Source: an archaeon (GTDB taxonomy: Archaea; Nanobdellota; Nanobdellia; Woesearchaeales; GW2011-AR9). From it: a stretch of DNA of 64,000 nucleotides. The notes under the pieces were generated by a model that made no database searches, was not told where the DNA came from, and saw only the letters and a list, made by a program, of their open reading frames with translations. Each line of letters opens with the position of its first letter. The first letter of the stretch is position 1. The translations under genes were made by a program, and so were the position numbers. Shown here piece by piece: positions 1-56,632 of the stretch. The stretch spans positions 1-64,000 of the forward strand of contig JAUYKZ010000009.1 of the NCBI GenBank assembly GCA_030704845.1, given 5' to 3'.

Positions 1-5
1 TATAT

Positions 6-138
6 AAAATGCGTTAATATATACTCAACGCTAAATGAAATTTGGAACTTAATTCATTTAGCGTTTGTATATACCAACGAAAAGTTCACAAAAATACTTT
101 TCGTTCAGTATATTCGAAATCTAACGCATTTTAGTATA
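6..138 (-). repeat. Two-hairpin repeat, copy 1 (interrupted, partial)
   Basis: The outer stem is AAAATGCGTTA (6-16) with TAACGCATTTT (122-132). This is the same hairpin found at 32422-32457, 41400-41435 and 56572-56597. Its loop is split by about 91 extra bases that contain two further perfect hairpins. The right edge reads TTTAGTATA, as in the other copies. The partner hairpin (AAAGTGCC type) is absent and should lie just left of the window, judging from the copy at 56510. The copy overlaps the 3' end of the HAD gene and supplies its stop codon. Confidence 0.85.
22..112. repeat. Second two-hairpin element nested inside repeat copy 1
   Basis: This segment is absent from the loop of the other three copies. 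It holds a 13-bp perfect hairpin (AACGCTAAATGAA 27-39 with 53-65) and a 10-bp perfect hairpin (AACGAAAAGT 76-85 with 96-105). They are separated by TATATA. The segment ends in TATA (109-112), repeating the TATA at 18-21. Excising 22-112 restores the uninterrupted sequence. The architecture (two hairpins with TATACT...AGTATA ends) matches the host repeat, although the stems differ completely. Exact edges are ambiguous because of the TA repeats. Confidence 0.75.
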
Positions 139-31988: not shown

Positions 31989-32071
31989 TTTATTATCCTC
32001 CATATGTTATTTTCTTTATTTATATATCTTACTTATAGTTTGACTTTCATATCTCCAGATCTGTTATTGAG

Positions 32072-32143
32072 GCCTGCCGAGGAGAATTGAACTCCTGTCT
32101 CTTGAATCACAGTCAAGAATCTTACCATTAGACGACGGCAAGC
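32072..32143 (-). tRNA. tRNA-His (GTG), A37 type
   Basis: Folded by eye. The acceptor is C1-G7 with 66-72, including one T-G pair, plus an encoded G-1 (32143) opposite C73 (32072). The D loop has GG and the anticodon stem is CTTGA/TCAAG with loop CTGTGAT (anticodon GTG, A at 37). The T loop is TTCAATT and there is no intron. The G-1:C73 pair is the HisRS identity element. It differs in nearly every stem from the other tRNA-His at 32336, so it is not a recent duplicate. Confidence 0.92.
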
Positions 32144-32335
32144 ATAATTAGAAATTAATGTGGAAGCTTTCGCTCTACTGATGATGAATTCTATTTAAAA
32201 AAATAGGTTGACAACTAGAAAAAAGATTACCGACAGTGAATACAATCACTTCTGGTTTGTGTTGCCATTTTAATTTAAGAAGATATAAACTATTTAAATG
32301 TTTCTATCGCTGTAACTAGATAGTAAGAAAAATGG

Positions 32336-32408
32336 GGCGGCCACGGGGAATCGAACCCCGATTTGGGGATCCACAGTCCCCCATTCTAACCGTTAAACTA
32401 TGGCCGCC
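32336..32408 (-). tRNA. tRNA-His (GTG), G37 type
   Basis: The acceptor GCGGCCA pairs fully with 66-72, with encoded G-1 (32408) opposite C73 (32336). The anticodon stem is GGGGA/TCCCC, the loop CTGTGGA (anticodon GTG, G37 as in typical archaeal tRNA-His), and the T arm CGGGG-TTCGATT-CCCCG. There is no intron. It is GC-rich compared with its surroundings, as expected of a functional archaeal tRNA. Confidence 0.95.
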
Positions 32409-32415
32409 AATACAA

Positions 32416-32509
32416 TATACTAAAATGTGTTAGATTTCGAATATATTAACGCATTTTATATATATAAAGTGCCAAAAATAAGTTCGAAAGCTTTGGCACT
32501 TTAGTATAT
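32416..32509 (+). repeat. Two-hairpin repeat, copy 2
   Basis: Hairpin 1 pairs AAAATGTGTTA (422-432 within 32 kb) with TAACGCATTTT (447-457); one C-to-T change leaves a wobble pair. Hairpin 2 pairs AAAGTGCCAAA (466-476) with TTTGGCACTTT (492-502). Both loops contain TTCGAA. The edges are TATACTAAA and TTTAGTATA. It lies between tRNA-His and the phospholipid fusion gene. Confidence 0.92.
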
Positions 32510-41393: not shown

Positions 41394-41486
41394 TATACTA
41401 AAATGCGTTAGATTTCGAATATATTAACGCATTTTATATATATAAAGTGCCAAAAATAAGTTCGAAAGCTTTGGCACTTTAGTATA
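41394..41486 (+). repeat. Two-hairpin repeat, copy 3 (reference copy)
   Basis: Hairpin 1 pairs AAAATGCGTTA (41400-41410) with TAACGCATTTT (41425-41435), and hairpin 2 pairs AAAGTGCCAAA (41444-41454) with TTTGGCACTTT (41470-41480). Edges are TATACTAAA and TTTAGTATA. It lies in the divergent region between a membrane-protein gene and the eS19 operon. The reverse complement of the copy at 56510 differs by about one base, in the TA-rich spacer. Confidence 0.93.
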
Positions 41487-56509: not shown

Positions 56510-56601
56510 TATACTAAAGTGCCAAAGCTTTCGAACTTATTTTTGGCACTTTAATATATATAAAATGCGTTAATATATTCGAAATCTAACGCATTTTAGT
56601 A
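56510..56601 (-). repeat. Two-hairpin repeat, copy 4
   Basis: This copy is inverted relative to copies 2 and 3. AAAGTGCCAAA (56516-56526) pairs with TTTGGCACTTT at 56532-56542, then AAAATGCGTTA (56562 onward) pairs with TAACGCATTTT ending 56597. The left edge is TATACTAAA; the right edge reads TTTTAGTAGA, so one terminal T-to-G change is seen. It lies between the TrmB gene and pheS. Confidence 0.9.
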
Positions 56602-56632
56602 GAATTAAAATCTATTAATCCGTCCTTCCCAA

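Follow-up and report, generated by a model that had tools for sequence, protein, structure and literature searches.

Double-hairpin elements (DHEs) have been described from fungal and other mitochondrial DNA, such as that of Allomyces and fission yeasts, as pairs of short hairpins that are repeated and mostly intergenic. According to the excerpts of these reports available to us, identical copies are common to different species (PMC10085805), closely related species differ in their insertions, and a lack of flanking duplication is reported for the Allomyces elements (PMC2800124). In REPINs, what moves is a doublet of palindromic units in inverted orientation, which shows compensating changes and an intergenic location (PMC3116915, PMC3733652, both available in part). 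TA-inserting MITEs, among them Correia/NEMIS and RUP, are about 100 bp long and A+T-rich, carry terminal inverted repeats and have TA as termini and target (PMC2229807, likewise in part). We describe here elements of an archaeal chromosome whose closest functional parallel is a double-hairpin element or a REPIN, and which insert like a TA-type MITE. With a probability of about 0.65, we consider them to be non-autonomous mobile DNA elements that consist of two inverted hairpin units and are moved in trans at TA. No title describing these elements stands among the matches listed from the openly licensed literature on DPANN, Woesearchaeota and Pacearchaeota repeats and on archaeal hairpin MITEs.

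The window, the whole 64-kb stretch of DNA analysed, belongs to a genome of 1.016 Mb in 24 contigs that is 97% complete and probably a Pacearchaeota or Woesearchaeota MAG (G000; C numbers denote its contigs). It contains three full copies of one element, A, and a fourth that is split by a second element, B. Element A is 93 bp long and consists of two 12-bp hairpins joined by (AT)n, with TATACT before the first and AGTATA after the second; with 24 G or C among the 93 bases it is A+T-rich. The features of the window are the following:

41394..41486, + strand: element A, reference copy, between divergent open reading frames (ORFs)
41399..41436, + strand: hairpin 1 of the reference copy, 12-bp stem TAAAATGCGTTA, 14-nt loop with TTCGAA
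41443..41481, + strand: hairpin 2 of the reference copy, 12-bp stem TAAAGTGCCAAA, 15-nt loop with TTCGAA
32416..32508, + strand: full copy of A, its start 8 bp from a tRNA-His gene (32333-32407)
56510..56603, - strand: full copy of A in opposite orientation, one end mutated (AGTAGA in place of AGTATA)
1..19, - strand: fragment of A, split by B and truncated at the contig end
20..112, + strand: element B, a second double-hairpin element inserted at TA in the first loop of A, stems AACGCTAAATGAA and AACGAAAAGT
113..138, - strand: other end of the B-interrupted A (...TTCGAAATCTAACGCATTTTAGTATA)

B has the plan and length of A and unrelated stem sequences. A first-pass annotation of the window had recognised the repeat family, and most of its description holds with adjusted borders. 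The copy starting at 32416 ends at 32508 instead of 32509, the inverted copy at 56510 ends at 56603 instead of 56601 with AGTAGA as its last bases, and the supposed partial copy at 1-138 does contain A, but split by B in its first loop and cut off by the contig end. The stems, given as 11 bp, are 12 bp long with loops of 14-15 nt. TTCGAA is indeed found in both loops of A, the copies do occur in both orientations (+ at 32416 and 41394, - at 56510), and the C to T change at 32428 preserves a G-U pair on the + strand, as had been noted; the same change is present in the copy at contig position 167754. As a separate observation, two tRNA genes within 340 bp of each other (32071-32142 and 32333-32407) are both called tRNA-His (GTG), and their sequences are quite different.

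The family is not limited to the four copies noticed initially. A sequence search of G000 recovers 28 full-length A copies at 92-100% identity, far from chance, and 23 near-identical B matches on the listed strand, 18 of them full-length and 5 truncated at contig ends. Exactly 141 bp are common to several pairs of contig ends (the starts of C8 and C22, the ends of C18 and C22, and the ends of C10 and L056, the Pacearchaeota MAG contig JAUYJY010000011), and the first 141 bases of the window are identical to part of another contig. We read these shared ends as assembly overlap at k=141, so that contig-end matches are counted more than once; with the duplicates collapsed by hand, we estimate about 16 true B copies, nine of them fully internal. 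Given the common 141-bp end, L056 seems to come from the same assembly graph as G000; its element copy is absent from the listed G000 matches. The end pattern TATACT-N81..111-AGTATA has 55 matches on the G000 forward strand, compared to 7 for the reversed control pattern. Further types occur, and all types in G000 are A+T-rich and follow the plan TATACT-hairpin-TATATA-hairpin-AGTATA: A' (C8:205237) keeps hairpin 2 of A and has a new hairpin 1, type C lies at C8:193275, and type E lies near position 87500 of C21, is itself split by B and has a relative at C18:20030. A three-hairpin composite is found at C1:42592. Several contig ends (e.g. of C8, C10, C18, C22, C23 and C24) fall in nested or tandem A-B composites; hence such composites are present more than once and may be mobile as a whole. 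Four A copies (L016, L025, L029, L030) have a central TA run that is 2 to 8 bases longer, perhaps through slippage. Partial A and B matches in G000 are either remnants of nested copies or located at the ends of contigs, and the search for an autonomous copy there, meaning a half-element with a gene inside, found none. A scan of G000 for TATACT-N11..18-TTCRNA returned 94 matches; all 14 outside known elements were read, and one is a full element (L161) while 13 are without a stem of 7 or more.

The two-hairpin structure was examined by folding and by covariation. As single-stranded DNA, A folds with z values of -6.6 and -6.9 on its two strands, and none of 200 shuffles is as good. With RNA parameters, the prediction for A is a single long imperfect hairpin, which challenges the two-hairpin picture of the first-pass annotation and is presumably due to the likeness of the two halves as inverted repeats (A matches its reverse complement at about 74% identity); B is predicted as two hairpins under both parameter sets. 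For covariation we used 15 divergent elements, which had come from similarity searches or end patterns (B had been recognised by eye), and scored a two-hairpin structure that had been adapted from the fold of this same alignment. Paired cells amount to 94.5% compared to 70.6% after shuffling, 61 cells are changed on both stem sides compared to 20.1 in shuffles, and the covariation score is 0.549, compared to 0.134 for shuffled alignments and at most 0.130 for slid structures. The same result for pairing and covariation is obtained with 26 elements, a set that consists mostly of covariance-model finds and is hence biased towards the structure. Among these 26, the majority loop motif is TTCGAAC (sometimes TTCGTAC) in hairpin 1 and the inverse in hairpin 2, and at the foot of hairpin 2 TATAC pairs with GTATA, with unpaired bases between foot and stem. 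The element thus consists of a single kind of hairpin unit, present twice in inverted orientation. Pairing of the stems is maintained across these elements. Shape is kept while stem sequence drifts; part of the covariation could stem from exchange of whole units instead of selection on each stem.

How the elements insert can be read from repeats that exist with and without them. A 127-bp repeat of genome G130 contains GGTTATAAAC; six copies are uninterrupted (L150-L155) and three (L112, L156, L157) are interrupted at the same TA by different elements, the insert in L156 being a longer nested arrangement. Both junctions in all three read GGTTA-[TATACT..AGTATA]-AAC. Each 93-bp copy adds 91 bp net, and TA is left on both sides. 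The only symmetric-ended reading would be an element TACT..AGTA plus a second TA, and the sequence is compatible both with a TA duplication and with an element that itself ends in TA and inserts 3' of a TA, and cannot distinguish the two. Another G130 copy separates two near-identical 32-bp tandem repeats precisely at a TA. B is found inside A at three kinds of place, namely the first-loop TAs, the central TATATATA and the end TA; the empty sites for these insertions are provided by the uninterrupted A copies. In genome G030, of another genus, two B copies have empty orthologous sites in congeners (L137 in G031, at 87% identity over 690 bp; L135 in G032, at 81%); bases beside both sites are slightly different, so these comparisons show absence and not the exact footprint. 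The G129 locus that corresponds to L112 has neither the 127-bp repeat nor the element, and at that of L125 the element is missing in a region too diverged for reading the site. These empty sites support mobility, and together with the nesting they bear out the proposal of a non-autonomous mobile element. The comparison of orthologous loci which the first-pass annotation had suggested thus yielded empty sites. TA on both sides is read from the interrupted repeats and elements; longer target duplications are unsupported, since the bases beyond TATA differ between the two sides in most A copies. The 127-bp repeat itself (TTCAAAAAAAATGGGTTATAAACC...GGGAAGTTTACTT) has more than 15 matches in G130, is absent at one orthologous G129 site and is a probable mobile repeat of another kind that also serves as a target for double hairpins. 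The G130 flanks also contain further hairpin repeats with a comparable double layout (TATAGTAAGTGAC../..TGTCCGACATTATA), as well as short repeats built around the motif CATGAGAC..GTGGACTGCGTCC.

A TA target with TA on both sides, short terminal inverted repeats, a length of about 93 bp and a high A+T content together make up the profile of a bacterial MITE, as far as the available part of PMC2229807 describes it. The elements might accordingly be ordinary TA-inserting MITEs, internal-deletion derivatives of an IS630/Tc1-mariner-type transposon in which the hairpins are incidental. However, unrelated stems stay paired, and a DDE transposase that binds terminal sequence would need no pairing; MITEs also differ from the archaeal elements, which are two separate hairpins with sequence-free stems. 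The DDE_3 domain was not found in G000; among 49 genomes of the taxonomic family it is present in 4, of which three carry elements and one does not. A partner transposase of the IS630/Tc1 type with matching ends was sought in G000 and among the 49 family genomes, and none was detected: no locus among the six with DDE_3, some of them incomplete, has TATACT on one side of the gene and AGTATA on the other, and the inverted ends at one of them are different from those of the element (TATAGATAATTCTG). We therefore regard a MITE origin as quite unlikely.

A TA dinucleotide suffices as a target for A, with A+T-rich flanks and no other strong preference at 27 sites. None of 27 A copies lies inside an ORF of at least 80 aa, in agreement with the gene-end and intergenic positions given initially, although with the element left out, an ORF of at least 150 aa spans the joined flanks at 2 of 27 sites; of the TA dinucleotides in the window, 88% lie inside ORFs of at least 120 aa. 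This intergenic bias may be explained by selection against hits in genes. Genes are not always avoided, as removal of L137, one of the B copies of G030, leaves an open frame of 429 codons that spans its position. B is found in or against other elements in 8 of 11 distinct configurations (shared contig ends collapsed by hand), which, with the background densities of the window, has a chance probability of 1e-9 if the target is TATA and of 0.002 if it is TATATA. Movement as composites may weaken this preference.

Strong hairpins, covariation and an intergenic position, often near gene ends, are also what a conserved structured RNA or a terminator that does not move would exhibit. However, the same sequence occurs in both orientations and in all configurations of neighbouring genes (for A 15 tandem, 6 divergent, 5 convergent and one contig edge; n=27), as well as nested in other elements, and the empty orthologous sites contradict this explanation as a complete one. 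At Rfam gathering thresholds the elements have no match, and only a 5S rRNA and two tRNAs are found in the window. A non-mobile RNA or terminator element is thus very improbable, while a role in termination or as RNA is possible as a side effect of mobile elements.

The covariance-model search that the first-pass annotation had proposed shows how far the elements extend. With model R1 at a cut-off of E <= 0.001 per genome and matches counted on both strands, members were found in 29 of 49 genomes of the family and in 78 of 352 of the order (at most 12 candidates scored per genome), where weak matches with E near 1e-4 may be due to chance. Two genomes of one genus outside the family, G129 and G130, are strong carriers with multiple copies, and element-bearing records include, besides L056, the Woesearchaeota MAGs JACOZM and JACOZP. 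Identical copies are shared across genera: three of four B copies in G030 agree with the B of the window at all 93 bases, and the fourth differs at 2. Contamination was considered as a source of this identity and is unlikely, as two of the four flanks match congeners across the site (87% in G031, 81% in G032), and the matches to G000 are shorter or weaker (the longest covers 276 bases at 71%; the others have 66-83% identity, with 74-83% reached over 40-113 bases). The remaining two flanks have no long match in congeners and do not decide this question. G030 also carries a type of its own (TATACTGAAATTCC..GGAATTTCATATATAG; loci L193-L206) with about 32 matches of approximately 42 bp, the second half of which differs in L198. 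The latter keeps hairpin 1 and has a new hairpin 2. Together with A' of G000 it shows an exchange of partners between units, for which the TATATA joint would be the simplest place. In viral contigs, the A-type pattern has no match, and a looser pattern of ends and middle occurs in 28 contigs, none with both stems of at least 8 bp, which indicates that TATACT/AGTATA-type ends alone arise by chance. Neither A nor B was matched in the phage and plasmid collections.

The layout, in which two hairpin units stand in inverted orientation, the foot is conserved, stem changes are compensatory, the position is intergenic and the doublet is the unit, is that of REPINs in the accessible part of PMC3116915, and a single-strand transposase (HUH, Y1) that acts on the inverted hairpin pair would explain it. 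In this respect the REP-like description of the first-pass annotation was apt. The enzymatic side is different: the GTAG/CGTC tag is absent and the foot is TATACT, the spacer is a short TA run, TA stands on both sides of the insertion, and Y1_Tnp was not found in G000, in spite of its completeness of 97%, nor in G005 or G015. Among 19 family genomes, G008, G011 and G016 have Y1 without elements, and G009 and G017 have both; overall, the domain occurs in 8 of 30 genomes searched and does not track the elements, the control genomes being positive in 5 of 14 cases. IS200/IS605-type minimal elements, such as the palindrome-associated elements of haloarchaea, carry hairpins near both ends; these ends are not known to form an inverted pair or to create a duplication, and here again the lack of a Y1 match in G000 marks a difference. 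A Y1 enzyme as the driving force is hence improbable. Rolling-circle endonucleases of the Rep-Arvir family (PMC13107129) were considered as a further possible candidate. The search for a transposase gene with the same ends as the repeat, which had also been proposed, remained negative for the six DDE_3 loci, and neither Y1 nor DDE_3 was found in G000.

Serine recombinases exchange DNA at a 2-bp core, which predicts TA on both sides and insertion in either orientation. A small chromosomal member of 260 aa (C21:106243-106686 in G000) could thus carry out site-specific exchange at a TA core with AGTATATACT/hairpin substrates, and the 2-bp core is indeed identical at both element ends and in the target. 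The best NCBIfam match of this protein is CcrB, far below the cut-off of the model. PF00239 is present in 21 of 49 family genomes, including that of the window, and these have stronger element matches (Mann-Whitney p = 0.0024, one-sided, uncorrected for kinship); any element is found in 16 of 21 genomes with the domain and 13 of 28 without (p = 0.034), and a best E of at most 1e-9, a threshold chosen afterwards, in 12 of 21 and 2 of 28, respectively. As the genomes are related, these p-values are not independent. However, at least four carriers that are 93-100% complete have no PF00239 match (G012, G013, G037 and G009, the latter with weak element matches only), and five genomes have the domain and no elements. 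Of the 16 loci read, at least 9 have the recombinase gene next to a PAC2-like gene, and no hairpins flank it. The TATACT of its promoter largely coincides with a TATA box that adjoins a CTTAGGG/CCCTAAG palindrome; we therefore rejected this TATACT as a shared recognition site. As the sole mover, the recombinase is rejected because of its absence from some carriers, and it is kept as a candidate; that it accounts for the elements seems unlikely. The palindrome, CTTAGGG(AG/CT)CCCTAA, stands together with a TATA box in 10 of 16 upstream regions (loci L164-L180; L172:2692-3474 in C21 of G000) and is probably the recombinase's own operator for autoregulation.

Returning to two inverted hairpin units moved in trans, an enzyme that is presumably coded elsewhere would recognise the unit by its TATACT foot, a hairpin of free stem sequence and a TTCGNAC-like loop. 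Such a protein might bind the hairpins in single-stranded or cruciform DNA and join or cut the two outer ends at the TACT/AGTA tips. The intermediate would be an excised piece or a circle with the junction AGTA-TA-TACT, and the element of about 89 bp would be inserted at a TA, leaving TA on both sides.

Since each of the nearest described kinds fails on a defining feature, we call the elements small, non-autonomous, structure-defined mobile DNA. They share with DHEs the two short hairpins, the repetition, the mostly intergenic position and identical copies in different species, to the extent covered by the reports cited above. However, DHEs are organellar and the elements described here, known from MAG records, lie in archaeal chromosomes; fission-yeast DHEs were sought by a GC content above 75% according to the excerpt at hand, while the archaeal elements are A+T-rich and have conserved TATACT/AGTATA ends, TTCGNAC-like loops and TA on both sides. 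Tentatively, they could represent a separate DPANN mobility class, in which modular hairpin units are recognised by shape and a short foot and loop instead of stem sequence. Such units would pair, swap partners at TATATA junctions and move within and between genera as dimers of about 90 bp via a TA core, driven by an unrecognised and possibly host-owned enzyme; the claim of a wider class hinges on this missing enzyme. With these findings, double-hairpin mobile elements are no longer confined to mitochondria but extend to the chromosomes of DPANN archaea. The archaeal elements have conserved ends, a defined target, empty sites, identical copies in two genera and covariation. Dozens of near-identical copies in a genome of about 1 Mb make a testable system for the smallest mobile DNAs, and their stems, loops and feet are a ready series of substrates for the search for the enzyme.
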